A DNA stretch of 64,000 bases from Bacteroidales bacterium. Its GTDB lineage: Bacteria; Bacteroidota; Bacteroidia; Bacteroidales; UBA932. Below, in pieces: positions 17,620 through 37,416 of this stretch. The position numbers were made by a program, and so were the translations under genes. Where the stretch lies: assembly GCA_017438975.1 (NCBI GenBank), contig JAFRUH010000023.1, forward strand, positions 1 to 64,000. The letters run 5' to 3'. The notes beneath the pieces are model-generated. The model saw nothing but the letters and a program-made list of their open reading frames with translations, searched no databases and had not been told where the DNA came from. Position 1 is the first letter of the stretch. Every line of letters begins with the position of its first letter.

Positions 17620-18744
17620 ATGAAAAAGTACGCCGTCCGGGAAATCCTGTCCCGAAAAGAGATCAAAACCTTCATCCGCTTCCCTGAAGAACTCTACCGG
17701 GACTGCCCGCAATACGTGCCCGCCCTCCGGGGAGACCAGATGCATTCCCTGACGAAGGCCGCCCCGCTCGCCTACTGCAAGCGGAAACTGTGGCTCGCCT
17801 TCGACGGCGACGGAAAGGTTGTCGGAAGGATCTGCGGCATGATCAACCCCCGCTACAACGAGCTCTACGGTACGAAACGGGCACGGTTCGGGTGGTTCGA
17901 CATGATCGATGACTTCGAGGTCGCCCGCCTCCTTCTGGAGACGGCGGAGGAATGGGCCAGGAGCGAAGGAATGACCGAGATCCATGGACCCCTCTACTAC
18001 AACACCCTCGGGAAACAGGGCATGCTCGTAGAGGGATTCGGCAACGTCCCGGTCTTCAATACGCTCTACAACTTTCCCTATTACAATGATTTCGTCCAGA
18101 GGCTCGGGTACGCCAAGGAATGCGACTGGGTGGAGAACAAGATGGTCGCGAACATGGACACTCCGGAAAAGGTCCACCGGATCGCCGGGATGCTGATGGA
18201 AAAGTACCGTCTCCACGAAGGGAGCATCGACCGACTGAAAAAGGATCCCGAACGGGTCCGGAATTTCTTCCGGGTCTACAGCGACAGTTTCTCGCAGACC
18301 GTCCATAATTTCATCCCCTTCACGGAGGAAGAGATCGAGGAAGAGGCCTCTTCGGTCATGCGCTTCCTGTCCGACAAGGTCAGCTGCATCGTTCTGGATG
18401 AGAATGAGGAACTCGTCGCCTTCGGCATCGCCTTCCCGGACATCTCCCGGGCGCTCCAGAAATGCCGCGGGCGGCTCTTCCCCTTCGGTTGGATCCATCT
18501 TCTCCGCGCGTTGAAAGACTTCCGGACCGTGGACCTGATGATCAACGGAGCGGTCCCGGAGTGGCAGAACCGGGGCATCTCGGCCGTCTATCACAGCATC
18601 CTGGCGCGGAAATACATGGAAACGGGCACGGAATGGGCCCTGTCCAATCCCCAGATCGAAACCAACGGCGCCGCCGTCAACGTCTGGAACAAATACGGGC
18701 ATGAACTCTACATGCGCCGCCGCTGCTATATCAAGGCGCTATAG
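17620..18744 (+). CDS. GNAT-like acetyltransferase family protein
   Basis: This 374-residue protein belongs to a Bacteroidota family annotated as GNAT N-acetyltransferases. It shows two GNAT-like halves. The first (about 50-150) contains KLWLAFDGDGKVVGRICGMI, a typical strand pair. The second (about 255-374) contains CIVLDENEELVAFGIAF and a C-terminal NPQIETNGAAVNVWNKYGH acceptor-like helix. No substrate is known. It stands alone behind its own promoter, and its 3' end overlaps the convergent mazG gene by 6 nt. Confidence 0.7.
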   Translation: MKKYAVREILSRKEIKTFIRFPEELYRDCPQYVPALRGDQMHSLTKAAPLAYCKRKLWLAFDGDGKVVGRICGMINPRYNELYGTKRARFGWFDMIDDFEVARLLLETAEEWARSEGMTEIHGPLYYNTLGKQGMLVEGFGNVPVFNTLYNFPYYNDFVQRLGYAKECDWVENKMVANMDTPEKVHRIAGMLMEKYRLHEGSIDRLKKDPERVRNFFRVYSDSFSQTVHNFIPFTEEEIEEEASSVMRFLSDKVSCIVLDENEELVAFGIAFPDISRALQKCRGRLFPFGWIHLLRALKDFRTVDLMINGAVPEWQNRGISAVYHSILARKYMETGTEWALSNPQIETNGAAVNVWNKYGHELYMRRRCYIKAL

Positions 18745-19596
18745 GCCTTTCGCCTTCCCCTCGTCCCAGATTTCGTCCATCTCCGCAAGGGTCATGTCCG
18801 TCAGCATGCGCCCTTTCCGGATCGTCTGCTCCTCGAGATAAGTGAAGCGGCGGCGGAACTTGTCGCAGGCCCGGTTCAGGGCGGTGTCGGGGTTGAGTCC
18901 GTAGAGGCGGGCGGCATTGATCACGGCGAAAAGGAAGTCACCAAGTTCCTCTTCCGCACGCACATACGCAGCCTTGAATCCATCTGAAGAGCCCTCGGCC
19001 GGGGCGAACTGGGACGGTTCGACATGGCCGTCTTCTGCGTCCATCGCCTCCAGCTCGGCCTGATACTCCCCAAGTTCTTCCTTGACCTTGTCCCAGACCT
19101 GGGATTTCTCCTCCCAGTCGAAACCTACCCCGCGGGCCTTGTCCTGCATGAAATAGGCTTTCAGGATCGAAGGAAGGGACTCGGGAACGCCGGAGAGGAC
19201 ACGCTTGTTTCCGCCTTTCTCTTTGGTTTTCAGCATTTCCCAATTGTGGGAGACTTCGTCGGCATCGGCGACCTCGACGGTCGAAAAGACATGGGGATGG
19301 CGGTAGACCATCTTGTCCGAAACCTTTTCGGCCACGTCCGCGATGTCGTATTTTCCCTGTTCCTCCGCAATCCTGGAATAGAAGACGATATGCAGGAGCA
19401 CGTCGCCGAGTTCCTTCTTCAGGTCCTCGTCGTCTTTCTTGAGGACGGCGTCACTGAGTTCATAAACCTCTTCGAGGGTCATCGGACGCAGGGAATCGAT
19501 TGTCTGCGCCGCATTCCAGGGACATTTCGCCCGGAGTTCTTCCATGATATCGAGCAGGCGGCCGAACGCCGCCAGTTTCTCTTCTTTCGTATGCAT
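18739..19596 (-). CDS. mazG: Nucleoside triphosphate pyrophosphohydrolase MazG
   Basis: MazG hydrolyses NTPs to NMPs and pyrophosphate and protects against aberrant nucleotides. The 285-residue protein has the first MazG domain with CPWNAAQTIDSLRPMTLEE and the EExxE-type metal motif (KKELGDVLLHIVFYSRIAEE, across two helices). A second MazG-like domain contains RAEEELGDFLFAVINAARL. The length suits the two-domain enzyme. The ATG at 19596, 18 nt after the promoter box, is chosen over an upstream in-frame start that overlaps the divergent gene. Confidence 0.95.
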   Translation of the reverse strand: MHTKEEKLAAFGRLLDIMEELRAKCPWNAAQTIDSLRPMTLEEVYELSDAVLKKDDEDLKKELGDVLLHIVFYSRIAEEQGKYDIADVAEKVSDKMVYRHPHVFSTVEVADADEVSHNWEMLKTKEKGGNKRVLSGVPESLPSILKAYFMQDKARGVGFDWEEKSQVWDKVKEELGEYQAELEAMDAEDGHVEPSQFAPAEGSSDGFKAAYVRAEEELGDFLFAVINAARLYGLNPDTALNRACDKFRRRFTYLEEQTIRKGRMLTDMTLAEMDEIWDEGKAKGL

Positions 19597-19614
19597 GCGT
19601 CGTGTTTTACCTTG

Positions 19615-19643
19615 CAAAGATACGAAGAAAATCCGTATCTTTG
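19615..19643. promoter_or_regulatory. Divergent -7 boxes for mazG and the CoA-transferase gene
   Basis: TATCTTTG occurs on the minus strand (19622-19615, toward mazG) and again on the plus strand (19636-19643, toward the CoA transferase). They are 13 bp apart. Both are exact matches to the -7 consensus. Confidence 0.75.
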
Positions 19644-19672
19644 TGGAATCGAACTTATCTGTAAGCATCCCC

Positions 19673-20974
19673 ATGAAAGAAATCAGATACGTCAGCGCAG
19701 ATGAAGCGGTCCGGGCCGTCCGGACCGGAGACCATATCCACCTCGGCAGTGTCGCGAGCGTGCCTCACGTCCTGATCGAAGCCCTCTGCCGGAGGGCGGA
19801 CGCAGGCGAAATCGAAGATGTCCATTTCCACCATTTCCATACAGAGGGTCCCGCTCCGTACAGTGAGCCCCGCTATGAGGGCATCTTCTTCGACCAGGGG
19901 TTCTTCGTCGGTCCGAACGTCCGCGCCAACGTGAACGCCGGCTACGCCGATTATCTTCCGGTCCATCTTTTTGATTCCCAACGGCTTTATCGCTGCGGCG
20001 CCCTCCGGTGCGACGTCGCTATGGTCCAGGTCTCCCTCCCCGACGAAGCGGGACGGGTCTCCCTCGGCACCTCGGTCGACTGCTCCCCCGCCGCCATCGA
20101 AGTCGCCCGGAACGCCATCGCCGTCGTCAACCCGCACGTCCCCTTCGCCTATGGGGATACGCTTCCCCTAGAGGATTTTGACGCCTTCGTCTATGACGAG
20201 ACGCCCCTTTTCACCAAACCCTCCCCCGCCCCGTCCAAAGAAGAGATCATCATCGGGCGGCGCTGTGCGGAACTGGTCGACGACGGGGCCTGCATCCAGG
20301 TCGGCATCGGTTCCCTCACCAATGCCCTCGCACCCCAGCTGGAAACCCACCGGGACCTCGGACTGCATACGGAAATGTTCGGGGACGGGATCCTCGGGCT
20401 GATTGAAAAAGGGGTCATCAACGGCGCCTGCAAGAAGATCGACACGGGGAAGATCGTCGCCTCCTTCCTGCTCGGTTCCGACCGGGTCTACCGCTTTGTC
20501 GACCGGAATCCCGAAGTCCTGATGAAGGACATCGCCTATACCAACGATCCCTGGGTCATCGCCCGGAATCCCCGGATGGTCGCCATCAATTCCGCGACGG
20601 AGGTGGACTTGACAGGCCAGATCTGCGCCGACTCCATCGGAACCCGGATCTTCTCCGGGACCGGCGGCCAGCTGGATTTCGTCAAGGGAGCCAATCTGTC
20701 GCAAGACGGAAAGTCGATCACGGCCTTCGCTTCCCGCACCAACAAGGGGAAGAACAAGATCGTCCCGATCCTGAATCCCGGCGCCGGAGTGGTCACCCCC
20801 CGGGCCGACGCCCACTGGATGGTCACGGAATTCGGCGCCGTGGACCTCTTCGGCAAATCCATACAAGAAAGGGCGAAACTGATGATCAGCATCGCCCATC
20901 CCGAGGATCGTGAAGCCCTTGACAGGGCCGCTTTCGAAAGGTTCGGTCCCCACTGGAGGAACCTCTCTGTCTAG
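19673..20974 (+). CDS. Acetyl-CoA hydrolase/transferase family protein (4-hydroxybutyrate CoA-transferase-like)
   Basis: The 433-residue protein is a family I-type CoA transferase. It has the N-terminal GDHIHLGSVASVPHVLIEAL segment, a QVGIGSLTNALAPQL loop and the catalytic-region motif GLHTEMFGDGILGLIEKG, whose Glu would form the CoA thioester. The C-terminal half carries the GGQLDFVKGA loop. Related enzymes exchange CoA between acetate, butyrate or 4-hydroxybutyrate, so a role in fermentation end-product metabolism is likely. The start follows its promoter box by 29 nt. It overlaps the next convergent gene by 4 nt. Confidence 0.88.
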   Translation: MKEIRYVSADEAVRAVRTGDHIHLGSVASVPHVLIEALCRRADAGEIEDVHFHHFHTEGPAPYSEPRYEGIFFDQGFFVGPNVRANVNAGYADYLPVHLFDSQRLYRCGALRCDVAMVQVSLPDEAGRVSLGTSVDCSPAAIEVARNAIAVVNPHVPFAYGDTLPLEDFDAFVYDETPLFTKPSPAPSKEEIIIGRRCAELVDDGACIQVGIGSLTNALAPQLETHRDLGLHTEMFGDGILGLIEKGVINGACKKIDTGKIVASFLLGSDRVYRFVDRNPEVLMKDIAYTNDPWVIARNPRMVAINSATEVDLTGQICADSIGTRIFSGTGGQLDFVKGANLSQDGKSITAFASRTNKGKNKIVPILNPGAGVVTPRADAHWMVTEFGAVDLFGKSIQERAKLMISIAHPEDREALDRAAFERFGPHWRNLSV

Positions 20975-21444
20975 AAATTCAGCGCCAGGCCCATTCCGTT
21001 GCGGGTCGGACCGACCGTCAGCGAGGAATGCGGCCGCGGTGCGTACCGGCGTACGTAATCGTCCATCATCCAGTCCAGTTCGTGCCGTCCCCGGACCCAG
21101 AGCGGGATTCCGAATCCAAGCCCGCCGAGAACACCGGCGAGTCCGATAACGGCCGGCGCGGTTTCATCCTCTCCGATTCCGTTAGCCGCAAGCAGTCCGC
21201 TGATCGGGGCGACGACCGTAGCCAGGAAGATGCCCCAGTTCCGGTCGCTCTTGGCCCGGCGGTAACGGCTGCCGTAGATGGAATAGCCGACATGGTCCCC
21301 GAAGGGCTCCAGATAATAATAATCGTGTTCGACGACGGGTCCCTGGTATTCGGGATCGAAAAGAACGCGTTCAGGGGGATTTTGTGCGGAGAGGCTTCCC
21401 GACAGCGCCAGGAGAGCCACCAGTATTACGATGATCTTTTTCAT
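20971..21444 (-). CDS. Exported protein, paralogue of the divergent neighbour
   Basis: I do not recognise this 157-residue family. A signal peptide (MKKIIVILVALLALSGSLSA) precedes a Tyr-rich stretch. Two hydrophobic segments (about 75-90 and 98-115) and a C-terminus ending in MGLALNF follow; a final Phe is typical of outer-membrane strands. It shares blocks with the divergently transcribed gene at 21552: YSIYGSRYRRAK versus ISLYGSEYLRAR, GIPLWVRGRHEL versus GIPLWVSGNRRL, and the C-terminal GxGLxLxF. The pair is a diverged duplication. Confidence 0.75.
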   Translation of the reverse strand: MKKIIVILVALLALSGSLSAQNPPERVLFDPEYQGPVVEHDYYYLEPFGDHVGYSIYGSRYRRAKSDRNWGIFLATVVAPISGLLAANGIGEDETAPAVIGLAGVLGGLGFGIPLWVRGRHELDWMMDDYVRRYAPRPHSSLTVGPTRNGMGLALNF

Positions 21445-21551
21445 ATGCAGAAGATTTGATTCAAATCCTTTCACTGCACATTCCATGCCCGTCCCGGAGC
21501 CCGGCATATTATTTGTGACGAACCTGGCATTGAACATAAAACTGTTGGATT

Positions 21552-22124
21552 ATGAAAACGAGAATCATACTTGTCACCGTGCTCCTGGCACTCTGCACCA
21601 CGGCTTTCGCCCAGTACGGCAGATATCCCTATCATCACCACCATCACGGTCCCTATGGAGGTCCCTACGGACCGATCGAGTACCGCTGGGGCCATTATTA
21701 TGACCAGTACGGATACCCCGTCTCGCCCGACTATCTCGGAATCTCGCTTTATGGAAGCGAATACCTGAGGGCCCGGCGCCAGGTGGGATGGGGCAGCACC
21801 CTGACGCTGACCGGATCCGGATTGCTCCTCGGCGGGATCCTCGGCGCAGCCATGCAATCGGATTTCGACCGAAGGGTCAGGGCGGATTATTCCCGCATGG
21901 GAAGCGACTATCAGTCCGAAGGCATCCACTCCCTGTCCATCGTCTCGGGGGTCATCGGGGCGGCTTTCCTGGGAGCGGGGATACCTCTCTGGGTCAGCGG
22001 CAACCGCAGGCTCTACCGGATCGCCGACGACTACAATCACCGGTATGGCGGCGGCTACGGCTACGCTCCTTCGCTCTCGCTCGGCTCTTCTGCGAACGGC
22101 GTCGGACTCTCCCTCCGCTTCTGA
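21552..22124 (+). CDS. Exported His/Tyr/Gly-rich protein, paralogue of the divergent neighbour
   Basis: This 190-residue exported protein starts with a signal peptide (MKTRIILVTVLLALCTTAFA). A His/Tyr/Pro/Gly-rich segment with five consecutive His residues follows. Two hydrophobic segments flank a region ending GIPLWVSGNRRLYRI, and the C-terminus is VGLSLRF. It aligns with the product of the divergent gene at 20971-21444 over the central and C-terminal parts but has an extra His-rich insert near the N-terminus. The function is unknown. The His cluster could bind metal, which is speculation. Confidence 0.75.
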   Translation: MKTRIILVTVLLALCTTAFAQYGRYPYHHHHHGPYGGPYGPIEYRWGHYYDQYGYPVSPDYLGISLYGSEYLRARRQVGWGSTLTLTGSGLLLGGILGAAMQSDFDRRVRADYSRMGSDYQSEGIHSLSIVSGVIGAAFLGAGIPLWVSGNRRLYRIADDYNHRYGGGYGYAPSLSLGSSANGVGLSLRF

Positions 22125-22139
22125 TTATAAGACACCGTC

Positions 22140-22291
22140 GGAAAGGAAGGGGTGTTGCTCCTGAAACCGCCTTCGGCCCCTCCCTGACAGCACCCCAAGA
22201 ATCAGAGATTCTCGGGGACCCCGCTTAGGGCCCCTCCCTCTTACATTGCCGAGGGTGGCATGGGTTTCAGGGGCAACACCCCTTCCTTTCC
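22140..22291 (-). repeat. Structured inverted-repeat element, copy A
   Basis: Arms 22140-22168 and 22263-22291 pair over 29 positions with one mismatch, which would be a G-U pair in RNA. The core carries the conserved block 22227-22269 (minus strand), identical at 42 of 43 positions to copy B at 27417-27459. That block forms its own stem, CC(A)CCCTC with GAGGG(A)GG. A second, copy-specific hairpin (AGAATC-AGA-GATTCT) is present. The element fills the gap between two convergent genes. Confidence 0.9.
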
Positions 22292-22298
22292 ATTGTCC

Positions 22299-24188
22299 TT
22301 ATTTCAGCGCCTCGATGACACTGCGGTTGATCTCGCGGACGCGGGCTTCATCGATCTTGATTACGGCCCGGTCATAGGTCATGAGGCCGTTGACCTCGAT
22401 CTCGACATCCGTCGTCTGCGTATAGACGGCGCCGGAGGTTCCGCGGCCGACCAAGTCGATCAGCTGCCTGGCATACCGCTCATAGGCATCCGTCACATCC
22501 TTGGAATTCTTGTACTGGATATACCCCCAGTTCTTGTCCGGCTGCCAGAGATGGCCCTCGAGCGGCAGGCCGATGCCGCCGTACTCGCCGACGACGTTCG
22601 CGACGGTCGGGCTCCAGAGGTACTGGGCGGGATTCGGGTAGTTGTGGCAGTCGAGGATGTCCCCGCAGTTCTCATTGTGATTGCCGCCGGAAGCCGGATT
22701 GATCAGGCGGGTCGGGTCCTTTGCGCGGGTGAAAGCCACGGCATCCGGGGTGTCGAACTGGCACCAGGCCTCGTTGAAGGGCACCCAGACAGTGATGCAG
22801 TTGAAGACCCGGCGGGCGTCCATGATCTCAGCCCATTCCTTATAGAAATTCTCCTTCGTCCAGGCGCTCACCTCCGAATCCTTGCCCTGGAACGGCTGGT
22901 AATCGCGGTACTTCCACTGACCGTGACGGCTGTCGGTCGGGCTCGGCATGTCCTGCCAGACCATGATCCCGAGCCGGTCGCAGTGATAATACCAGCGGGC
23001 GGGCTCGACCTTGATATGTTTCCGGATCATGTTGAACCCGAAGTCGCGGGTCTTGACGACGTCATAGGCGAGGGCCTCGTCGGTCGGGGCCGTATAGAGG
23101 CCGTCCGGCCACCAGCCCTGGTCGAGGGGGCCATAGTTGAAGCAGGGTTTCCCGTTGAGTCCGAGGGACTTGAAGCCCTTGACGTCCTCGACGACGGAAA
23201 CGCTCCGGACCGAGGTGTAGCCGCAGACCTCGTCGAGGACCTTCCCTTTCCGGAGGACCTTGATGCGGAGGCCGTAGAGATAGGGATCGTCCGGGGACCA
23301 AAGATGCGGGGCAGGGACCTTGAGAAGGGCCTTTCCGCCGACAGCCGAAGCGCTGGAAACGACGGGAACTCCCTGGAAATCAGCCTTGTCCATATCCAGT
23401 CCCGCCTTACCCTCGAGCAGTTCGACGAGAACTTCGTCGCCGGGAACGAGGCCGGCCGAAGCGACCTGGACGGAGACCGTTTCAGCGGCCGGATCCGGGA
23501 CGGTATAGAAACTCTCGATATGCGATGAGGCGACCGGCTCGATCCAGACGCTCTGCCAGATGCCCGTCACGGCCGTGTACCAGATTCCGTGCGGGTTCAT
23601 GACCTGCTTGCCGCGGGGGACGTAGGTATGGTCCCCCTTCGTATCGATGTCGGTGGGATCTGTCACCCTGAGGGTCAGCACCTGCGGGCCCTTCTTGCGG
23701 AGAAGGTCGGTGATATCAAAGCTGAAAGGCGCATAGCCGCCGGTATGGGAACCGGCTTTCTTTCCGTTGACCCAGACCTCCGCGGCCCAGTCGACCGCTT
23801 CGAAATGGAGGAGGATCCGCTGCTTCTTCCAGTCCTTCGGGACGGTGAACGCCGTCTCATACCAAAGGGCCTCTTTCTCGCTCACCATCTTTCCGACTCC
23901 CGAAAGGGAGGATTGGATCGCGAACGGGACGAGGATCTTTCCGTCGCCGATGACGGGCTTGGCCGCCTCTTCCCGGGTCACGGCATAGTTCCAGAGGCCG
24001 TTCAGAGACTGCCAGCGGGGACGGACCATCTGGGGACGGGGATATTCGGGATGGGCATTCTGCGGTGAAACTTCCGCCGCCCAGCGGGTCTTGATCCTGT
24101 CCCCCGCGGGGGCATATTCCTGGGCTGACGCCCAGATGACGGAAAAGGAAAAAGCGGCGAGAATCGCCAAAATCAGATTTTTTCGCAT
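22299..24188 (-). CDS. Secreted GH2 family glycoside hydrolase (beta-galactosidase/glucuronidase-like)
   Basis: The 629-residue enzyme begins with a signal peptide ending in IWASAQ. It has the three-domain GH2 layout: sugar-binding jelly roll (about 60-230, with HFEAVDWAAEVWVNGKKAG), Ig-like domain, and TIM barrel from about 330. The acid/base Glu is in WVPFNEAWCQFD and the nucleophile Glu in VVGEYGGIG. The substrate cannot be fixed from the sequence; beta-galactosides or beta-glucuronides are most likely. The start at 24188 lies 29 nt after the TATATTTG box. It is divergent from cstA. Confidence 0.92.
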   Translation of the reverse strand: MRKNLILAILAAFSFSVIWASAQEYAPAGDRIKTRWAAEVSPQNAHPEYPRPQMVRPRWQSLNGLWNYAVTREEAAKPVIGDGKILVPFAIQSSLSGVGKMVSEKEALWYETAFTVPKDWKKQRILLHFEAVDWAAEVWVNGKKAGSHTGGYAPFSFDITDLLRKKGPQVLTLRVTDPTDIDTKGDHTYVPRGKQVMNPHGIWYTAVTGIWQSVWIEPVASSHIESFYTVPDPAAETVSVQVASAGLVPGDEVLVELLEGKAGLDMDKADFQGVPVVSSASAVGGKALLKVPAPHLWSPDDPYLYGLRIKVLRKGKVLDEVCGYTSVRSVSVVEDVKGFKSLGLNGKPCFNYGPLDQGWWPDGLYTAPTDEALAYDVVKTRDFGFNMIRKHIKVEPARWYYHCDRLGIMVWQDMPSPTDSRHGQWKYRDYQPFQGKDSEVSAWTKENFYKEWAEIMDARRVFNCITVWVPFNEAWCQFDTPDAVAFTRAKDPTRLINPASGGNHNENCGDILDCHNYPNPAQYLWSPTVANVVGEYGGIGLPLEGHLWQPDKNWGYIQYKNSKDVTDAYERYARQLIDLVGRGTSGAVYTQTTDVEIEVNGLMTYDRAVIKIDEARVREINRSVIEALK

Positions 24189-24217
24189 AGAGTATGGAAT
24201 TACATGATTAACGTACG

Positions 24218-24256
24218 CAAATATATCTAAAAAGTGCGGATATTTTTCTATTTTTG
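24218..24256. promoter_or_regulatory. Divergent promoters for the GH2 gene and cstA
   Basis: TATATTTG (minus, 24225-24218) points to the GH2 gene. TATTTTTG (plus, 24249-24256) lies 23 nt before the cstA ATG at 24280. The boxes are 23 bp apart, the same spacing as between the promoters at 17562-17600. Confidence 0.7.
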
Positions 24257-24279
24257 CAAAGGAAAAAACCTGCAGAACC

Positions 24280-25734
24280 ATGTATTCATTCCTCCTTAGC
24301 CTCCTGGCCCTTCTTCTCGGATATCTCGTGTACGGAGCGTTCGTGGAAAAAGTGTTTGCACCGGACCCTGACCGGAAAACACCTGCCATTACCAAAGCGG
24401 ACGGCGTCGACTACATCGCCATGCCCTCCTGGAAGGTTTTCATGATCCAGTTCCTCAACATCGCCGGCACCGGTCCGATCTTCGGAGCCATCATGGGCGC
24501 CAAGTTCGGTCCTTCCGCCTACCTCTGGATCGTTTTCGGATGCATCTTCGCAGGTGCCGTCCACGATTACATGAGCGGAATGCTCTCCATCCGGAACGGC
24601 GGGGCCGGACTTCCCGAACTGATCGGGAAATACCTCGGAATGACGACCAAGAAGGTCATGCTGGTTTTCTCGATCCTGCTCCTGCTGCTGGTCGGAGCCG
24701 TTTTCGTATACTCCCCGGCCCTGATTCTCGGAGATATCGCGGGAAACGGGAGCTCCACGGCCGTCATGATCTGGATCGGTGTCATCTTCGCCTATTATAT
24801 CGTCGCGACCCTCCTTCCGGTCGACAAGATTATCGGCAAGATCTATCCCCTCTTCGCCTTCGCCCTCCTTTTCATGGCCGCAGCCCTGCTGGTCTGCCTG
24901 TTCGTCAAATGGCCCTCGATCCCTGAGATCTGGGACGGGCTCGGCAACCGGACCTCGGCGGCGACGCCGATCTTCCCCTGCCTGTTCATCACGATCGCCT
25001 GCGGGGCGATCAGCGGCTTCCATGCGACCCAGAGCCCGATGATGGCCCGGTGCATGCAGAATGAGAAGCTCGGACGCCCGATTTTCTACGGGTCCATGAT
25101 CACGGAAGGCCTTGTCGCCCTCGTCTGGGCGGCCGTCGCCTCGTATTTCTTCTATGACGGAGGCGCCGCTGCCGTCGGTTCCGAAGTGACCGCCGCCGCT
25201 CCGACCGTCGTCACGAAAGTCGCGGGCAGCTGGCTCGGCGTCGTCGGCGGCATCCTGGCCGTCCTCGGTGTCGTCGCCGCTCCGATCACAAGCGGAGATA
25301 CCGCTTTCCGGAGCTCGAGGCTCATCATCGCCGACTTCCTGAAATATGACCAGCGTCCCATGAAAAACCGCCTCGCAATCGCGGTGCCCCTCTTCGTAAT
25401 CGCCGCCGGCCTGCTCTGGTTCAACGTCGCCAACGAAGACGGTTTCAATATCGTCTGGCGGTACTTCGGATGGGCGAACCAGACCTTGTCGGTCTTTACG
25501 CTCTGGGCCATCACGGCCTACCTGGCCGGTGCCCGGAAGGGAGCCTGGTACCTGATCACGCTCCTTCCCGCCTGCTTCATGACCTCGGTCTGCACGACCT
25601 ACATCTGTATCGCGAAGATCGGTTTCAACCTTCCCCCGAGCTGGAACTTCTGGATCGGCGGATCGGTTTTCCTCCTCTCGCTGGTGCTGTTCTTCATCCT
25701 GAAAAGACGCATCCATCCTTCGGAAACTAATTAA
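24280..25734 (+). CDS. cstA: Carbon starvation protein A family transporter
   Basis: CstA proteins take up pyruvate or peptides during starvation. The 484-residue protein has about 13 hydrophobic segments. It shows the family motifs FLNIAGTGPIFGAIMGA, AVHDYMSGMLSIRNGG, FHATQSPMMARCM and APITSGDTAFRSSR. It is the short form, compared with about 700 residues in E. coli. It starts behind its own promoter box. A HerA-like ATPase gene follows after 9 nt and is probably co-transcribed. Confidence 0.93.
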   Translation: MYSFLLSLLALLLGYLVYGAFVEKVFAPDPDRKTPAITKADGVDYIAMPSWKVFMIQFLNIAGTGPIFGAIMGAKFGPSAYLWIVFGCIFAGAVHDYMSGMLSIRNGGAGLPELIGKYLGMTTKKVMLVFSILLLLLVGAVFVYSPALILGDIAGNGSSTAVMIWIGVIFAYYIVATLLPVDKIIGKIYPLFAFALLFMAAALLVCLFVKWPSIPEIWDGLGNRTSAATPIFPCLFITIACGAISGFHATQSPMMARCMQNEKLGRPIFYGSMITEGLVALVWAAVASYFFYDGGAAAVGSEVTAAAPTVVTKVAGSWLGVVGGILAVLGVVAAPITSGDTAFRSSRLIIADFLKYDQRPMKNRLAIAVPLFVIAAGLLWFNVANEDGFNIVWRYFGWANQTLSVFTLWAITAYLAGARKGAWYLITLLPACFMTSVCTTYICIAKIGFNLPPSWNFWIGGSVFLLSLVLFFILKRRIHPSETN

Positions 25735-25743
25735 GAGAACCAT

Positions 25744-27384
25744 ATGCTTGACAAAGAAAGAGGGCTGTATGTAGCCCATTGTGCAAACGGCCCCATCAGC
25801 CTCTGCGGGAAGATGGCGAACCGTCACGGACTCATCGCCGGCGCGACCGGTACCGGCAAGACCGTTACCCTCCAGGTCCTTGCGGAAACATTCTGCCAGG
25901 CCGGTGTCCCCTGTTTCATGGCCGATATGAAAGGCGACCTTTCCGGCATCAGCCAGGTCGGCCGCCTGTCCGGATTCATCCAGAAACGCCTTCCGGAATT
26001 CGGGATTGAAGATCCCCAGTTCCAGAGCTGCCCGGTCCGCTTCTTCGACGTCTTCGGGGAGCAGGGCCATCCGATGCGCTCCACGATCTCGGCTATGGGC
26101 CCCGACCTGCTGGGCCGCCTGATGGAACTGAACGAGACCCAGACGGGCGTCCTGCATATCGTCTTCCGCATCGCTGACGAGAACGGGCTCCTTCTGATCG
26201 ACGTGAAGGACCTGAGGGCCATGCTGAACTTCGTCGCCCAGAACGCGGCCGAATTCACCACGACCTACGGAAACGTCTCTCCCGCATCGGTCGGTGCGAT
26301 CCAGCGCGCCCTCCTCGCCCTTGAGAGCCAGGGCGCGGACAAGTTCTTCGGGGAACCCTCCTTCGACATCTACGACCTTCTCCAGTGCGAGGGCGGAAAG
26401 GGCGTTATGAACGTCCTGGCGGCGGACAAGCTCATGCTCAAGCCGAAACTCTATTCCACCTTCCTCCTCTGGCTCCTCTCCGAACTCTACGCCACCCTCC
26501 CGGAAGTCGGCGACCTCGACCTCCCGAAACTGGTCTTCTTTTTCGACGAGGCCCATATGCTTTTCGACGGCACCTCCAGGGCCCTCACCTCGAAGATCGA
26601 GCAGGTCATCCGGCTGATCCGAAGCAAGGGCGTCGGCATCTATTTCATCACCCAGTCCCCGACCGACATTCCCGAGGACATCCTCGGCCAGCTCGGGAAC
26701 CGGGTCCAGCACGCCCTCCGCGCCTATACCCCGAAGGACCAGAAAGCCGTGAAGACCGCTGCGGAGACCTTCCGTTCCAATCCCTCTTTCGACACCTACG
26801 AAGCCATCCTCAGCCTGGAGACCGGCGAAGCCCTCGTCTCCTTCCTGGACGAGAAGGGCGCCCCTTCGGTCGTCGAACGGGCCAAGATCCTCTTCCCGCT
26901 CAGCCAGATCGGGGCCATCACCGAGGACGAGCGGCGGCAGATCATCAACCGCTCCCGCCTGTTCGGACGGTACGACAATCCCGTGGACCGGGAGAGCGCC
27001 TATGAAATCCTGGTAGCCGCAACGGCGGAAGCGGAACGGCAGAAAGCCGAACTGGAAGCCCAGCAGGAGGCCGAGAAACAGGCCGCCCTGGAAGAGAAGC
27101 AGAAAGCGAAAGAAGAAAAAGAAGCCGCCAAGGCGGAACGGGAAGCCAAGAAGAAAGCGAAGAACAGCATCGCCTCCAAGGTCCTCAAGTCCGTCATCAC
27201 GGCCGTTACGGGCGTGGTTGCCGCCAGCGTGGCGGACACTGTCTCCGGCAAGGTGACCGGTGCGAAGAAATCGACGAAAAAGACGTCGACGACCAGCACC
27301 GCCGTGAAGAAAGCCACGAACGCCGCTACGAAGACCATCACGAGGGAACTCACCCGCAGCATCCTCGGCAACCTGGTCAAATAA
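25744..27384 (+). CDS. HerA-like (DUF853) ATPase
   Basis: This 546-residue P-loop ATPase has Walker [10 protein letters not shown] near residue 35 and Walker [12 protein letters not shown] around residue 265. A sensor-like [20 protein letters not shown] segment follows. These are typical of the DUF853/HerA-FtsK branch of helicase-like ATPases. Residues about 420-490 form an Ala/Glu/Lys-rich coiled coil, and the tail is Lys/Thr-rich. The cellular role of DUF853 proteins is not established; DNA translocation is inferred from the fold. It lies 9 nt after cstA. Confidence 0.88.
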
Positions 27385-27396
27385 CGCGTATACTAT

Positions 27397-27509
27397 ATAC
27401 TGAGAGGATTCTCTCTTGAAACCCATGCCACCCTCGGCAATGTAAGAGGGAGGTGCCCTTTAGGGGGGGGTCGCGAAGCGACGGTTTCAAGAGAGAATCC
27501 TCTCAGTAT
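27397..27509 (+). repeat. Structured inverted-repeat element, copy B
   Basis: Arms 27397-27423 and 27483-27509 are perfectly complementary over 27 bp. The core holds the conserved block 27417-27459 shared with copy A in opposite orientation, and a copy-specific hairpin GTCGC-GAA-GCGAC. Outside the shared TGAAACC/GGTTTCA ends, the arms have no similarity to those of copy A. The element fills the gap between two convergent genes. No T-run follows either arm. Confidence 0.92.
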
Positions 27510-27531
27510 CTATGTATGGTGTTGATATGTA

Positions 27532-29154
27532 TCAGAACCGCAGGCCGAGGGTCAGCAGGACGTCGAACATCGTAACCTTGTTGACGATCTCGGGAGACAG
27601 GATCGAGCTGCCGGAAGCATCGTAGGCATAGTCGTCATACGCCAGGAAATAATCGTCCGGGAGGAAATTCACCCGGAAACCGAGATCGGCGAAGAAAGAA
27701 CTCTTCGAGCTGTATCCCAGACCGAACGAAGCGCTTTCGCGGTTGGACTTGATGTATTTTCCGTAGTCATCCTTTTCGGGATTCGTGGTCAGGTTGTAAC
27801 CGGCACGGATGGCCAGCTCCGGCATCGGACGGATCTCGGTTCCGACGCGCAACATGTGCGAAACGCCCATGAAATCGCTGATATCCGCATTGACGCCCTC
27901 GAACTCGCTGTCATTCCGAGACATGAAGGATTTGAAATGCATCATGCCGTAATTGCACATCTCGTAATCCGCGCTGACAAGGCCGATCGGGCCGAAGGTA
28001 TAGGCGACACCGGCATTGACGCGCATCGGGGTCCTCAGGTCATACTCCCACTCCCCTTCCGGAGACTTGGAGTATCCGTCGAAAGTGGAATCGAGGAATC
28101 TCGTCTGGGCGTCATAGGCATAGTACTCCCTGATGTTCAGGACGGTCGGCGTGGTGATGGCCGCACCGATCCGGAGACCCGCGACGGGAGTGGTCAGGAA
28201 ACCGGCCTTGAGATAGGCCCCGTTGCCTTCCATATTATAGGAATAGCGCAGACGCAGGTTGTCGAAGAAAGTCTCCTGGAACTGGCCGTCGCCAATCACG
28301 TACTGGATGGCGAATTTCTTCGGGTTCATCGCCTCCTCCGCCCAGTACTCGTCGGAGTTCATGGAAAGGGAGGTAATTCCGATATTGGCCCCGAAGTAGA
28401 AGACGTCGGAGATATTGAAGCCGAAGTTGAAGAGCAGGTCCTGCTTGCTGCCGGTCCGGAGCCAGCCGTAGCGCTGGTTCAGCCCGTCCGCGAGCCGGAT
28501 CACGTCCCCGTCGGTCTTCTCGGTCACGCCGATATAACGGTCGTCCATCCCGCCGTAGGTGGCGATCATGTTCGAATTGTAGGCGGCCACCGGGCGCCAG
28601 GAAGCGTTGTCATAAGGATTGTCGCCACCGAACACGGAAGACGGGGTTCCGTCCGCGAGGGCTGCCATGCAACCGGCGAAAGACGTATTGTAGTTCGAAC
28701 CGCTCGCATAAACCTCGTTCAGGAAATTGTTGGTCGTATGGCCGACGAAGCCGAAGGTCCAGTTTTTCAGGCCGTGGCTCTTCCGGTTCGTCTTGAAATT
28801 CATGACGAAACCGTAGTTCGGGACCGCAAAGCGGGTATGGCCCGTGATGTTCGGATCCTCGAATCCATAGGGCTCGGTCTGGCCGCTGAGCGGCGTCCCG
28901 TGCGCATCGGCGGAGGTGATTACCAGGCCGGGAGTCACGGAAAACTGCGAATAGCTGTTCACGGCGGATCCGGCAGGGTTGAAATACAGCGTGCCGATGT
29001 CTCCGCCGACGGCGGTGACGGCATTGCCCATACCCACGGTACGCGCCGTGCCGATGTAGTTGTTCTGGCTGAAAAGATAGGCATCGTTCATGCTCTGGGC
29101 GCCCGCGAGGGCGGCCGAAAAGAGGAAGACGACGACTGCTGCATGCTTTTTCAT
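27532..29154 (-). CDS. OmpP1/FadL-like outer membrane protein
   Basis: The 540-residue protein has a signal peptide ending in LAGAQ. Its N-terminus is rich in small residues (NNYIGTARTVGMGNAVTAVGGD, then LYFNPAG), characteristic of OmpP1/FadL/TodX-type outer-membrane channels for hydrophobic compounds. Alternating beta-strand patterns continue to the C-terminal FDVLLTLGLRF, which ends in Phe as expected for a barrel. In Bacteroidota such proteins are often labelled hemin receptors, but the substrate is unknown. A Ser/Tyr-rich lipoprotein gene lies 81 nt upstream on the same strand. Confidence 0.85.
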   Translation of the reverse strand: MKKHAAVVVFLFSAALAGAQSMNDAYLFSQNNYIGTARTVGMGNAVTAVGGDIGTLYFNPAGSAVNSYSQFSVTPGLVITSADAHGTPLSGQTEPYGFEDPNITGHTRFAVPNYGFVMNFKTNRKSHGLKNWTFGFVGHTTNNFLNEVYASGSNYNTSFAGCMAALADGTPSSVFGGDNPYDNASWRPVAAYNSNMIATYGGMDDRYIGVTEKTDGDVIRLADGLNQRYGWLRTGSKQDLLFNFGFNISDVFYFGANIGITSLSMNSDEYWAEEAMNPKKFAIQYVIGDGQFQETFFDNLRLRYSYNMEGNGAYLKAGFLTTPVAGLRIGAAITTPTVLNIREYYAYDAQTRFLDSTFDGYSKSPEGEWEYDLRTPMRVNAGVAYTFGPIGLVSADYEMCNYGMMHFKSFMSRNDSEFEGVNADISDFMGVSHMLRVGTEIRPMPELAIRAGYNLTTNPEKDDYGKYIKSNRESASFGLGYSSKSSFFADLGFRVNFLPDDYFLAYDDYAYDASGSSILSPEIVNKVTMFDVLLTLGLRF

Positions 29155-29235
29155 ATCGTGTTTTTCGTTAAGTTGTTCGTGAATGACTGGAATATGGCAG
29201 ATAGAAGGAAAGGGACCGGAAGTCCCTTTCGTTCC

Positions 29236-30540
29236 TTACCTTCTGCCGCCGGAAGAATGGCTGCTGCCGGAGGAGTGGCTGCTGCTCGAGGAGTGGCTGC
29301 TGCCACCGCCGGAGTATCCGCCGCCACCGCTGCTGTGGGAAGAAGAGCCGCCGGAGTAGCTTCCGGAAGAAGAACTGCGGTAGCTTCCGCCGGAGCTCGA
29401 ACCGGAAGAGTAACCGGAGCCGGAGCTGCGGTAGGATCCGGAGGAAGAGCGGGAAGACGAGCCGCTGGAATAGGACCCGCGGGAAGAGGATGCGCTGCCG
29501 CTCGAGGAACGGACGGCTCCGGAAGAGGAGGACGAAGGCATCCTGTAGTTCACGGTGCCGGAAGAAACGCCCTGGGAAGAGCGGGATCCGGAAACGGTGC
29601 GGGAAGGACTGACGGCCGAGGTCGCCCTCGAAGGAGTCGTCGCCCTGCCGACGTTACGGGTCACGGTACTGCCGGTACGGGAAGTCGCACCCCGGACGGA
29701 GGAGATGGAGTTCCTGGACACGGCGGTCGTGGAAGGACGGCGGGTCATCGTCGTCGCCCGGGAGGCGGGAGCGCCCGATGTCACACGGGATGCCGTGCGG
29801 GCAGCGGTGGACGTCTTGCCGGGCATGCCTCCTACGAGACCGTCGGCGCGGGAATACTGGTTGCTGATCCGGGTGACACCGGAACGGGGTCCGTGAGCGG
29901 GATCCATCGCACCGCGCCAGAGGTGACCGTGACGGGGACCTCCCCAGCCGTGATAGTGATGGTATCCGTAGTAGCCGCCCCACCCGTAATAAGGGCTGTA
30001 GGCATAATACCAGGGATCATAATAGAAAGGATCGTAGTACCAGGGATCCCAGAATCCGGAATACCAGCCGTAACGGGGGCCCCAGGCGCCCCAATAACCC
30101 CAGTAGCTGTAGGGATTGCCCCACGTAAAGGAGCGGAACCAGGGATCGTAATACCAGGGATCGAACCAGGGACGGTATCCGTACCAGCCTCTCATGTACC
30201 AGGGTGACCAGGCCCAGGAATAGTTCCAGTACAGGTCATCATTGTCGAAGAAGTTGTACGTTACGGTGTTGTCCTTATTATAAGAAATCGATGCCGTCTT
30301 CCCCTTCGGGATGACGATGGTATCACGCTGGCCGTCCGTCAGGAACAACTCGGAACTCAATGTCTCTGCAACAAGGGCGTCCATTTCCTCCTGGGAGGCG
30401 GCTTCCGCGACCTTGTCAACTGCAGGCTTATAGTAGATTCCGTCCTTGTACTGCTGGGACGAGGAGGAGAACTGCGCTCCCGTTCCGCACGAAGTCAGTG
30501 CGATGAGCGCCGCAAGGAAGAGTGCAATGTTCTTTTTCAT
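29236..30540 (-). CDS. Low-complexity lipoprotein (Tyr/Trp/Pro-rich, then Ser/Arg-rich)
   Basis: The 434-residue protein carries a lipobox (ALTSC) after an 18-residue signal peptide. Residues about 100-230 are dominated by Tyr, Trp, Pro, Gly and Asp, with repeated WYYDPW-like units. Residues about 240-434 are mainly Ser, Arg, Gly and Thr, ending in Ser-Gly and Ser-His runs. An AGGAG ribosome-binding site lies shortly before the ATG, which is uncommon in this phylum. The family is unknown to me. A surface-exposed, adhesive or intrinsically disordered protein is plausible. Confidence 0.8.
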   Translation of the reverse strand: MKKNIALFLAALIALTSCGTGAQFSSSSQQYKDGIYYKPAVDKVAEAASQEEMDALVAETLSSELFLTDGQRDTIVIPKGKTASISYNKDNTVTYNFFDNDDLYWNYSWAWSPWYMRGWYGYRPWFDPWYYDPWFRSFTWGNPYSYWGYWGAWGPRYGWYSGFWDPWYYDPFYYDPWYYAYSPYYGWGGYYGYHHYHGWGGPRHGHLWRGAMDPAHGPRSGVTRISNQYSRADGLVGGMPGKTSTAARTASRVTSGAPASRATTMTRRPSTTAVSRNSISSVRGATSRTGSTVTRNVGRATTPSRATSAVSPSRTVSGSRSSQGVSSGTVNYRMPSSSSSGAVRSSSGSASSSRGSYSSGSSSRSSSGSYRSSGSGYSSGSSSGGSYRSSSSGSYSGGSSSHSSGGGGYSGGGSSHSSSSSHSSGSSHSSGGRR

Positions 30541-30574
30541 GTATAGAATCTCCTATAATTGATAAAAAAATAAG

Positions 30575-30582
30575 TATCTTTG
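30575..30582 (+). promoter_or_regulatory. proS -7 box
   Basis: TATCTTTG at 30575-30582 is an exact -7 consensus. It leaves a leader of roughly 100 nt before the proS ATG at 30688. No TTTG occurs at the matching -33 distance. The stretch between the box and the gene is AT-rich near its end and holds no other recognised element. Confidence 0.6.
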
Positions 30583-30687
30583 TCCCGGAAAACCGGTTTG
30601 GTGCAATAAATGCAATATCCGTACCGTCCCGATATTTCAATGTTTCGTAAGGGCAAAATTAGAAAAAAATCAATAAAATTCAATAAT

Positions 30688-32166
30688 ATGGCAAAAGAGG
30701 TAACAAAAAGAGAGGATAATTATTCCCAGTGGTATGACAATCTGGTCGTGAAGGCGGACCTGGCAGAACGTTCCGCCGTCCGCGGCTGCATGGTCATCAA
30801 GCCCTACGGCTATGCGATCTGGGAAAAGATGCAGCAGATCCTGGACGGAATGTTCAAGGAGACCGGCGTGAAAAACGCCTATTTCCCGCTGTTTATCCCG
30901 AAATCGTTCCTCAGCCGCGAAGCCGAGCACGTGGAAGGATTCGCCAAGGAATGCGCCGTCGTGACCCACCACCGTCTCATGGCCAACCCGGACGGTCCCG
31001 GCGTCGTCGTCGACCCCGAAGCGAAGCTGGAGGAGGAACTGGTCGTCCGCCCGACCTCCGAGACCATCATCTGGAGCACCTACAAGAACTGGATCCAGTC
31101 CTGGAGAGACCTCCCCATCCTGTGCAACCAGTGGTGCAACGTCGTCCGCTGGGAGATGCGTACCCGCCTCTTCCTGAGGACCGCCGAATTCCTCTGGCAG
31201 GAAGGCCATACCGCCCACGCCACTTCCCAGGAAGCCTATGAAGAGGCCGAACGGATGGTCGGCGTCTATGCCAAATTCGCCCGCGAGACGATGGCCCTTC
31301 CGGTCGTCGTCGGCCACAAGAGTCCGAACGAGCGTTTCGCCGGCGCCCTCGATACCCTGACCATCGAAGCCATGATGCAGGACGGCAAGGCCCTCCAGGC
31401 CGGCACGTCCCACTTCCTCGGCCAGAACTTCGCCAAGTCCTTCGACGTCACCTTCACCAACAAGGAAGGCAAGCAGGAATATGTCTGGGCCTCGTCCTGG
31501 GGTGTTTCGACCCGCCTGATGGGCGCCCTGATCATGGCCCACGGCGACGACAACGGACTCGTCCTTCCGCCTGCCCTCGCCCCGATCCAGGTCGTCATGG
31601 TCCCGATCTACAAGACCGATGAAGAGCGCGAATCCGTACTCGACAAGCTCTATTCCCTCAAGAAATCCCTCGAGGCGAAGGGCCACAGCGTCGAGGTCGA
31701 TGACCGCGACACCCTGCGTCCGGGCTTCAAGTTCGCCGAATGGGAGCTCAAGGGCGTCCCGGTCCGGCTGGCCATGGGTCCCCGCGACCTGCAGAACGGA
31801 ACCGTGGAAGTCCACCGCCGCGATACCCTCGAGAAAGTGACCGAGCCGATCGACGGACTTGAGGACCGGATCATCGACCTGCTCGACGACATCCAGAAGT
31901 CGATCTACAACAAGGCCCTCGCTTTCCGTGACGCTTCGATCCGGAAAGTCGACACCTGGGAAGAGTTCAAGGTCGAAATCGAGAAGGGCGGTTTCCTGCT
32001 CTGCCACTGGGACGGCACCGCCGAAACCGAGCAGCGGATCCAGGAAGAGACCAAGGCGACGATCCGATGCATCCCTGTCGACAGCGCCGTCTGCATGGAG
32101 GAAGGCACCTGCGTCTATTCCGGCAAGCCTTCCCACCAGCGGGTCCTTTTCGCCCGTTCCTATTAA
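30688..32166 (+). CDS. proS: Prolyl-tRNA synthetase (archaeal/eukaryote-type, short form)
   Basis: ProS attaches proline to tRNA-Pro. The 492-residue protein has class II motif 1 near residues 30-60, motif 2 in [18 protein letters not shown] and the substrate-binding motif RPTSETI. The anticodon-binding domain and a Zn-domain-like C-terminus end in FARSY, the conserved Tyr tail of the archaeal/eukaryotic ProRS class. The bacterial editing insertion is absent. The frame is open to 30610, but the ATG at 30688 gives the normal N-terminus (MAKEVTKRE). DUF3078 and tilS genes follow. Confidence 0.97.
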
Positions 32167-32183
32167 TCTGAATCCCCACCGAT

Positions 32184-33212
32184 ATGAAACGACTGATTAT
32201 CCTCGCCATCGCCGTCCTGGCCACCGTCCCGCTCTTTGCGCAGGATCCCCAGACTGCAGCCGCGGAAGCCGCGGCCGCCCTGACCGCAGCCCCCGACGCC
32301 CCGAAGGCGGTCGCAAAACCCGTCCATTGGAAGAAATGGGCGAAGACCGACCTCAAATTTACCCAGACCAGTCTTACCAACTGGGCAAAAGGTGGTTTCA
32401 ATCAGTTCACCTTCGCAACCTATATCGATGCGAACGCCAATTACGCCAAGGACAAGACGACCTGGACCAACCGCCTCCAGATGGACTACGGCTTCCTCTA
32501 CTCCGCCGACAAGCCCATCGTGCAGAAGAACCTGGACCGGATCTACTTCAAGTCCGATTACGGCTACAAGACGAACGTCAAGAACCTGACCTACAGCGTC
32601 AACTTCGACTTCAAGACCCAGTTCGACAACAACTACACCTACGGAACGCCGAAAAGCAACGGCGAGACCGAGCCGACGAAAGAGGACTGGCTGAACGCCC
32701 GGAAACTGAAATCCGGCTTCCTCTCCCCGGGCACTTCGCAGCTCGGTATCGGTATCAAGTGGGTCCCCAAGAAATGGCTGACGGTCAACGCTTCCCCGCT
32801 GACCGGTGGTTTCGTCATAGTACGGGAGGAAACCCTGAGGAAGACCAACGGTATGGAACTCCGGAAAGAGGGGCTCGACCCCAAGGATGGGAGCAACTAC
32901 CGTCCGGCCCGGTTCGAACTCGGTGCCAAGGTGGTGACTGAAATCAAGCTGAAAGTCAATGACAATATCAGTTACGAGACCCAGCTCATCCTCTTCTCCA
33001 ACTACCTGAAGAATCCGCAGAACATCCGGGTCAACTGGGACAACCGCCTCGAATGGAAGATGGCCAAGTACCTGACGATGACCTTCAATACCTTCCTCAT
33101 CTACGACGATACGATCCGCATCGTCGATGCCGACCATCCGGACGGCTTCCGTGCCATCCAGTTCAAGGAATTCCTCCAGTTCGGCTTCACCTATACTTTC
33201 GGAAAGAAGTAA
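32184..33212 (+). CDS. DUF3078 domain-containing exported protein
   Basis: This 342-residue protein has a signal peptide (MKRLIILAIAVLATVPLFAQ) followed by an Ala-rich spacer. It then shows the pattern of the Bacteroidota DUF3078 family: TSLTNWAKGGFNQFTFATYIDANANY (about residues 65-90), repeated aromatic beta strands and a C-terminal FGFTYTFGKK. The barrel-like strand pattern and the terminal strand suggest an outer-membrane or periplasmic location. No reaction is known. It lies 17 nt after proS and 5 nt before tilS. Confidence 0.88.
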   Translation: MKRLIILAIAVLATVPLFAQDPQTAAAEAAAALTAAPDAPKAVAKPVHWKKWAKTDLKFTQTSLTNWAKGGFNQFTFATYIDANANYAKDKTTWTNRLQMDYGFLYSADKPIVQKNLDRIYFKSDYGYKTNVKNLTYSVNFDFKTQFDNNYTYGTPKSNGETEPTKEDWLNARKLKSGFLSPGTSQLGIGIKWVPKKWLTVNASPLTGGFVIVREETLRKTNGMELRKEGLDPKDGSNYRPARFELGAKVVTEIKLKVNDNISYETQLILFSNYLKNPQNIRVNWDNRLEWKMAKYLTMTFNTFLIYDDTIRIVDADHPDGFRAIQFKEFLQFGFTYTFGKK

Positions 33213-33217
33213 CGGCC

Positions 33218-34348: not shown

Positions 34349-34351
34349 GGT

Positions 34352-35608: not shown

Positions 35609-35663
35609 ACGCTTCTGGATTGATCAACTACCCTTTAAATCCGCTCCTCCCCGAAATCTTGCA

Positions 35664-36374
35664 TCACAACAGGAAAGAAAGGACCTCCGGAGTCTTCGTA
35701 TAATCCTCGATCCAGATGTAATCCATCCCCTTCAGACGGATGTGGCTGTCCCCGCCTCCGTCGTCGAAATCATCCCCGATGAAAAGAACCTCATCCTTCG
35801 TGTAACCATGCTCGGAGGCGTATTTCATCGTCGCATCGTACTTATTGTACTGTTTCGGAGCGAAATCGAAGGAAGAGGAGCCTCCGATGTAGACCGCGTA
35901 ATCCCTGAAAATCTCCAGGACCTCGGGGTACAACACCCTCCGCTTGGAACGGTCCGGATCGAAAGCGAGTTTGTCCGCCTGGTCCGCTTTCGTCCCGAGG
36001 AGACCGAAGGTGACCATGCCGCTCGCATGGAACTCGACCGGGTCTCCCTTGTATTCGGTATACCCGTATTTCTTCCGGAGATAGTCCGTCTTTTCCAGGA
36101 AGAATACCTTGTCAGGCAGGGAGGTATCCTCCCGGACGATCCGGAATTCCCCGTCTACGATGTGGCTCTCCTGCATCCCGTAGTTTCCGATGATGACGAT
36201 GGGATAATCGTTCATCTGGTGATAGATGCGGGGGCAGTTGCCCGCCCCCACCATAATCAGTTCATATCGTTTCCCGAGCGCGTCCAGCAGGGCCGTAGCC
36301 TCCGGAGAGAGCGGTGTCTTGTGCTGGGTCAGGGTTCCGTCGAGATCGAATGCAAGCAGTCTTTTCATCTCCAT
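35664..36374 (-). CDS. HAD-superfamily phosphatase
   Basis: The 236-residue protein has the HAD motif I FDLDGTLTQ (nucleophile Asp), a type IIB-like cap region (about 85-180) and motif IV GDDFDDGGGD near the C-terminus. Substrates of such enzymes are commonly sugar phosphates. It is the last gene of a ten-gene operon. Its ATG overlaps the stop codon of the nucleoside hydrolase gene by one base, and a second ATG at 36368 is also possible. In this context a phosphorylated pentose is a plausible substrate. Confidence 0.85.
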   Translation of the reverse strand: MEMKRLLAFDLDGTLTQHKTPLSPEATALLDALGKRYELIMVGAGNCPRIYHQMNDYPIVIIGNYGMQESHIVDGEFRIVREDTSLPDKVFFLEKTDYLRKKYGYTEYKGDPVEFHASGMVTFGLLGTKADQADKLAFDPDRSKRRVLYPEVLEIFRDYAVYIGGSSSFDFAPKQYNKYDATMKYASEHGYTKDEVLFIGDDFDDGGGDSHIRLKGMDYIWIEDYTKTPEVLSFLL

Positions 36375-37405: not shown

Positions 37406-37416
37406 GTCACACAGGT

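Follow-up and report, generated by a model that had tools for sequence, protein, structure and literature searches.

Two copies of a hairpin element, at positions 22140-22291 (plus strand) and 27397-27509 (minus strand) of a 64,000-nucleotide (nt) stretch of a Bacteroidales bacterium (assembly GCA_017438975.1, contig JAFRUH010000023.1, positions 1 to 64,000; this whole stretch is referred to as the window), raise the question of how the arms of a long stem can differ between copies and yet pair within each copy. The first-pass annotation of this DNA had described the two copies as lying in opposite orientation, and proposed either a mobile element that inserts into the tip of existing terminator hairpins or a structured RNA whose outer stem evolves by compensatory change; both places and the orientation were confirmed here. 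The copies were found to belong to a dispersed family, in which the arms drift in pairs and the core lies in opposite directions at some shared loci. On balance, we lean toward a dispersed family of palindromes that carry no gene themselves, similar to repetitive extragenic palindromic (REP) sequences and miniature inverted-repeat transposable elements (MITEs), in which the matching of the arms and the flips of the core would be caused by polymerase template switching. Hereafter, G000 is the window's own genome, G119 is the relative used most, and G003, G017, and G247 are further genomes.

Dispersal and architecture of the family

The window contains two of approximately 32 copies in G000: a covariance model gave 36 matches, and 32 remained once both-strand doubles were removed. 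The block of one copy (up to 3 mismatches) gave 14 matches in G000, while the reversed pattern gave 0, and a degenerate pattern gave 22; the latter was present in three of 61 genomes of the genus and order, G000 included. Using the covariance model (E up to 1e-5, with filters that lose weak matches), the family was detected in 69 of the 100 genomes sampled from the genus, with 1-32 copies each. The core search recommended in the first-pass annotation thus recovered further copies both genome-wide and in relatives. A scan of one genome per species gave at least 109 stretches; among the 80 matches listed, all were from Bacteroidales or Bacteroidia, and the hosts, where named, were ruminants. In these searches, the family was so far confined to Bacteroidales, within a group of these bacteria that is known largely from ruminant guts. 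No match was found in viral contigs (using one exact pattern) or in plasmids and phages (using the second window copy alone as the query, in distant mode). No longer version carrying its own gene occurred among the parsed copies, and no other search for one was made. Literature searches, judged at the level of titles and listings, found no published description of such a family, and the sequence letters of the core gave nothing relevant by title and abstract start.

Each copy has a core of 52-116 nt, as parsed, inside two arms that form the outer stem (P1), usually paired over 25-32 base pairs (bp). The core contains P2 (GTCGC-TTC-GCGAC or a variant of it) and P3, a hairpin that is hypervariable in sequence but often self-complementary, is bounded by CCCTCCC and GGG, and is replaced in some copies by approximately 25-60 nt. 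It also contains a block of almost constant sequence, CCCTCCCTCTTAYANNGCCGAGGGTGGC, that holds P4. In an older subfamily, seen by eye, ATGGCC...GGCCAT surrounds GAGGGT, and this region could form a pseudoknot with P4. Family-wide, 142 copies were parsed, nine of which repeat G119 copies, leaving 133; among the 65 copies of G000 and G119, six lacked the core pattern and four others lay at contig edges. A stem of at least 20 was found in 104 of the 133 non-repeated copies, the short stems including decayed copies and bulged copies that ungapped pairing misses.

Paired change of the arms

In 16 aligned copies, picked from 26 loci for similar length, 16 of the 20 arm pairs varied on both sides. 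In this set, 98.8% of the cells paired, compared with 82.4% after shuffling and approximately 55% when slid by one column, although the structure was defined from the same 16 sequences and thereby has an advantage over the slid alternatives. Insertions and deletions were also mirrored between the arms (TGAACC/GGTTCA and TGAAAACC/GGTTTTCA). Between orthologous arms of G000 and G119 (17 of 22 pairs passed the stem filter; 7 were alignable without gaps, one of them unchanged), 22 of the 30 changed positions were compensated on both sides, 4 were one-sided and still paired, 3 were one-sided breaks, and 1 was of another kind. Other species pairs (10 of 14, with arm identity above 0.6) gave 34 changes: 19 two-sided, 12 one-sided, and 3 other. 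Two-sided change therefore prevailed, with exceptions, and the initial proposal that the arms change on both sides while staying paired was supported, also between orthologous copies.

The arms were parsed at 23 of the 26 loci (22 from G000 and one from G003; three G017 loci were lost), and were 25-40 positions long (28.8 on average), with 5 mismatches in the longest. Between arms taken from different copies, the median pairing was only 8 positions, and 45 of 506 such pairings reached at least 16. As a refinement of what had been claimed, the arms of different copies are not entirely unrelated, but share a weak consensus: C/T-rich beside GAAACC, GG(G)TAT in the middle, and purine-rich outside. 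Since this consensus was also found in other species, the arms may descend from common arms. Their inner ends are fixed as ACC/GGT, and beyond the inner 5-6 nt there is only a weak shared motif. Four of the 23 loci had quasi-palindromic arms at p<0.05.

Orientation of the core at shared loci

At 22 loci shared by G000 and G119, with both flanks matching (69-97% identity over the matched pieces), the core had the same direction at 12 and the opposite direction at 10. Over all comparable pairs, several of which still share a locus, the direction agreed in 34 and differed in 30 (31 and 30 without three repeats of one twice-fetched locus). One pair with 91.6% flank identity had opposite cores. The opposite pairs G000_C23_59670/G119_C5_160610 and L188/L224 share core versions of 105 and 107 nt, lengths that occurred in no other of the 142 parsed copies, and their arms were 0.93 and 0.86 identical. 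Because a rare core and similar arms are shared in spite of the opposite direction, inversion in place is the simplest account of these two pairs, and in-place flips of the core are well supported. Flipping at one locus points to DNA copying rather than RNA function alone. Flips were fewer at loci with short arms (by ungapped pairing, in at least one species), one of five compared with nine of the 17 others, which is suggestive only.

Site-specific recombinases flip DNA in the promoter inversions of Bacteroides, and an invertible switch of this type would account for opposite directions at many loci and for the fixed inner ends of the arms. On the other hand, the arms share little past these ends, and the copies lie at gene ends; we consider such a switch quite improbable. 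We give a similarly low probability to the absence of any flip, in which the same gene ends would be hot spots filled independently and in random direction. The nearly equal numbers of same and opposite directions, the arms that were not alignable without gaps in 10 of 17 pairs, and differences in core class at some shared loci (e.g., C8_15154/C10_39013) agree with independent filling, whereas the pairs in which one rare long core, between similar arms, lies in opposite directions do not. A G247 copy (C48:11338-11451) directly beside the homologue of a gene end used as an insertion site in G000 is a further point for independent filling, and is possibly a second, independent hit on that gene end. 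The core was of another class, or had a long instead of a short P3, at three G000/G119 loci (C8_15154/C10_39013, C20_292275/C7_96576, and C23_22915/C5_123943), as if cores had been exchanged between copies.

At 14 of the 22 shared loci, identity was 0.85 for the core and 0.68 for the arms, compared with 0.72 and 0.58 between non-orthologous copies. When only young cores were compared, the values were 0.914 for orthologous (7 pairs) and 0.895 for non-orthologous copies (173 pairs), and these near-equal identities mean that the core alone is no proof of vertical descent.

Insertion sites

By a simple open reading frame (ORF) heuristic, 27 of 65 copies lay between convergent ORFs, 25 between co-directional ORFs (14 along and 11 against the transcript), 1 between divergent ORFs, and 12 inside an open frame. 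Most copies are located a few nt past a stop codon, and some are in frame within a gene: G119_C5_147241 is inserted in a murE-like frame, which stays open, and is absent in G000, where the empty site holds a 12-nt palindrome (CTCTCCGGAGAG, by eye).

In G000, C5_7847 stands between a convergent gene and the end of a gene that we take, from its protein letters, to be uvrB-like. In G119, the two stop codons at this site share CTAG and, judged from this one relative, the copy seems to have entered between CT and AG with no target duplication. The site was matched in 104 of 250 genomes; 29 loci besides its own were fetched, 24 of which had both genes adjacent. Twenty of these 24 had bare gaps of 2-20 nt without the element, two had longer gaps (97 and 349 nt; no core by eye), and two had overlapping aligned ends. 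The bare gap in 20 of 24 relatives indicates that C5_7847 was gained together with both arms. The mobility proposed in the first-pass annotation is supported by the copy number and by these filled and empty sites.

The same annotation proposed that the element enters the loop of an existing terminator hairpin, whose old stem then becomes the arms. Sites of six G000 copies were sought in G119 (three with flanks together) and those of eight G119 copies in G000 (six with flanks together), leaving three G000 and two G119 copies unsought. Loop insertion fits the G119_C17_18154 site, which in G000 is a plain hairpin, TTATCGGAGAGGG-GTCA-CCCTCTCCGATAA, similar to the outer half of the arms at the filled locus. 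It also fits the G119 C4_104070 site, where G000 has a shorter, weaker hairpin like the outer arms (by eye; unranked by the script), and the C20_229349 (G000) site, a core-less hairpin with related arms in G119. Such plain hairpins could equally be products of deletion, because some arms are quasi-palindromic. The bare gap at C5_7847 is opposed to it, as are the C33_138580 (G000) site in G119, with neither element nor visible hairpin (by eye), and the G119 C12_51614 site in G000, with at most a 6-bp palindrome (by eye). Furthermore, G119 C5_74834 and C11_78412 correspond in G000 to hairpins of other sequence, and G119 C9_76535 lies inside a gene. The empty-site comparison thus gave a mixed picture: no terminator has to be present beforehand, a hairpin could be left behind by deletion, and loop insertion is not a general rule. 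As an overall explanation, we judge it unlikely.

When the G119_C17_18154 site was sought in 200 genomes, the listed matches beyond G000 and G119 hit the two genes separately. A pattern for core-less hairpins, AACCGN{2,10}CGGTT, was applied genome-wide and gave 47 and 59 matches per strand, compared with 6 and 15 for its reversed control, but was uninformative, since those listed look unrelated. Palindromic target duplication was rejected as the origin of the arms because the middle of the arm is inverted, not repeated (GTA vs TAC, C20_229349). Downstream of homologues of the window gene 25744-27384 in 27 more distant relatives, the core pattern was absent from the first 330 nt past the stop, and several of these relatives had ordinary hairpins there; these loci are not true empty sites because the neighbouring genes differ. 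After the homologue of this gene, two relatives (L071 and L072) carry tandem copies of other repeats.

Structured RNA as an alternative

The other early explanation was a structured RNA at mRNA 3' ends (a terminator, a stabiliser, or a protein-binding site), in which selection keeps the stem paired via compensatory change. The covariation of the arms, the conserved core with its hypervariable and often self-complementary P3, and the position near stop codons (27 copies between convergent and 25 between co-directional ORFs, out of 65) agree with such a role. Selection on RNA accounts for the pairing, but not for a core lying in either direction at the same locus. In addition, the numbers of co-directional copies along and against the transcript (14 vs 11) suggest that the transcribed strand is irrelevant, some of the same gene ends lack the element in relatives, and Rfam 15 gave 0 covariance-model matches at E up to 5 in window positions 21000-28500. 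At least 5 T in the 8 nt past the stem were found at only 13 of 224 stem ends (mean 2.05 T; 16 of the 224 are ends of G119 copies counted twice). Since U-tracts are this rare, most of the stems are not ordinary intrinsic terminators. A terminator scan of window positions 18001-38000 gave 22 sites, compared with 18.6 expected, and was therefore uninformative on how common U-tract terminators are in the genome. We regard RNA function as a rather doubtful explanation of the family. At G119 C11:78412 (L128), the element adjoins a hairpin followed by a run of T, and is probably not the terminator of that gene.

Template switching as the probable cause

Template switching between inverted repeats is reported to homogenise the arms and invert the spacer (PMC8604942), and also to give rise to RNA hairpins and maintain them (PMC8794818). 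Given these effects, one process would cover both arm pairing and core flips, and homogenised arms with inverted spacers at orthologous loci are the pattern, if not the process, of template switching, which we consider the likely cause. In the proposed sequence of events, the whole hairpin would insert, mostly a few nt past a stop codon and sometimes in frame within a gene, and its arms, being an inverted repeat, would then allow the replication fork to change templates. One arm would be recopied from the other, placing changes on both sides, so that the arms drift yet stay complementary, and the spacer (the core) would at times be copied in reverse and flip in place. The core (P2, P3, and the block around P4) may be held by selection or recognition, perhaps by the enzyme that moves it.

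Several points weigh against this account. What was seen is the pattern expected from template switching, and not template switching itself. No flip occurred in the two closest independent pairs, whose flanks are 95.8 and 96.7% identical. The 10 of 17 G000/G119 pairs that were not alignable without gaps are silent on paired change, and two-sided change was less dominant in the other species pairs. In the yeast study, the inverted spacers were short, with substitutions of 2-5 bp (PMC8604942); by comparison, spacers of 52-116 nt would be out of the ordinary, even if the core is able to fold. Copies with decayed arms persist. Lastly, the core is approximately 0.90 identical both within and between G000 and G119, which asks for selection or concerted evolution as well.

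A bolder version, which we put forward tentatively, is a mobile palindrome that lives from template switching. Single-stranded hairpins would be both its vehicle (via an HUH transposase on the lagging strand) and its upkeep (the arms being recopied, and the core turned around in the course of evolution), with only the core inherited as sequence and the arms as pairing.

A candidate transposase

Of the 69 genomes that carry the family, 66 had a match to the Y1-transposase domain (PF01797), compared with 12 of the 31 that lack it (Fisher p = 1e-9, a value that is too good because the genomes share ancestry and phylogeny was uncorrected). Proteins similar to REP-associated tyrosine transposases (RAYTs) were encoded in G000, G119, and G247; the best NCBIfam match of four of them was NF047646 (REP-associated tyrosine transposase), at 35-45 bits, below the cut-off of 80. 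Three RAYT-like genes of G000 and G119 (L387-L389) had no family copy within the 8 kb fetched around them, and a second Y1 match in G119 was 5.2 kb from a copy. Among 20 loci with a Y1 match, two of which were chosen for a nearby copy, six had a family-model match at E up to 0.5 (one at 0.1). The RAYT-like gene of G247, together with a small ORF, is flanked by a different palindrome (GGGATTACC/GGTAATCCC; L390, 3381-3488 and 5123-5182), and perhaps represents a separate REPtron. The proposal that a RAYT-like HUH transposase moves the family is a lead, still unproven, and any benefit of the family to its host is suggested with the same reserve.

The two copies in the window

In the first copy (plus strand), a 5' arm of 29 nt ending in TGAAACC (22140-22168) and a 3' arm of 29 nt starting with GGTTTCA (22263-22291) enclose a core of the long version (94 nt; 22169-22262). 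This core contains an extra hairpin, CCCC-AAGAATC...GATTCTC-GGGG, at the variable P3 position (22193-22217) and the conserved block with P4 (CCCTC...GAGGG; 22236-22261); closely similar long P3 versions were found in four other copies of G000 and G119. The second copy (minus strand) has arms of 27 nt (5', 27483-27509; 3', 27397-27423) and a core of the short version (59 nt; 27424-27482), with P2 as GTCGC-TTC-GCGAC (27470-27482), P3 as CCC-TAAA-GGG (27456-27465), and a conserved 34-nt block with P4 that extends 7 nt into the 3' arm (27417-27450). The 34-nt block gave two matches in the window at up to 3 mismatches, and 100 shuffles gave 0. As described in the first-pass annotation, the arms pair within each copy (29 positions in the first, 28 Watson-Crick and one G-T; 27 of 27 in the second), and convergent ORFs flank both copies. 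Folding of partial pieces (starting at 22150 and 27400, respectively) was far more stable than that of shuffles: z was -4.6 and -9.7 as DNA on one strand each, and -4.4 to -9.4 as RNA on both strands. An ORF of 190 amino acids beside the first copy (21552-22124) had no Pfam match; this ORF and the copy are both missing from G119, where the flank matches end 2 nt apart.

Relation to known repeats and significance

The family resembles REP sequences and their RAYTs (PMC3733652, PMC6006769) in being palindromic, dispersed, located past gene ends and sometimes in frame, and in the co-occurrence of RAYT-like genes; RAYTs of Bacteroidetes (subclass 2.6) are flanked by "atypical secondary structures" (PMC6006769). 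Unlike REP sequences, it is longer (approximately 110-170 vs 20-40 nt) and is conserved inside and variable outside. No shared GTAG/CGTC tag was found at the outer ends of the copies; within the core, many but not all copies have CGTC at the base of P2. By description, Rickettsia palindromic elements (PMC10969869, PMC3733652) are similar in length (approximately 100-150 nt) and in their in-frame location in genes; in-frame insertion was found for G119_C5_147241, the copy checked individually, and other copies lie in long open frames. Free arms and a flipping core do not appear in the available descriptions of those elements. MITEs (PMC10969869) are likewise short, with inverted ends and tens of copies, but the inverted ends of the present family differ between copies, with only a weak consensus, and no clear target duplication was seen at C5_7847, as judged from one relative. 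Inverted repeats shaped by template switching (PMC8604942, PMC8794818) share arm homogenisation and spacer inversion; those papers deal with RNA genes or with yeast intragenic repeats whose spacers are short, whereas in the present case the pattern extends over a whole dispersed family.

Compensatory change in a stem is usually taken as proof of RNA function, but the family is a warning that mutation can be the sole source of covariation. At many loci and in several species, paired change of the arms is combined with spacer flips, which template switching predicts and selection on RNA does not. The family offers a testable candidate substrate for the RAYT-like proteins of Bacteroidales, and a set of replicate loci at which the rate of bacterial template switching, its spacer limit, and its strand bias could be measured. 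If the mobile palindrome lives from this process, it would be an element that keeps its shape rather than its sequence, and the orientation of its core would be a record of template switching.

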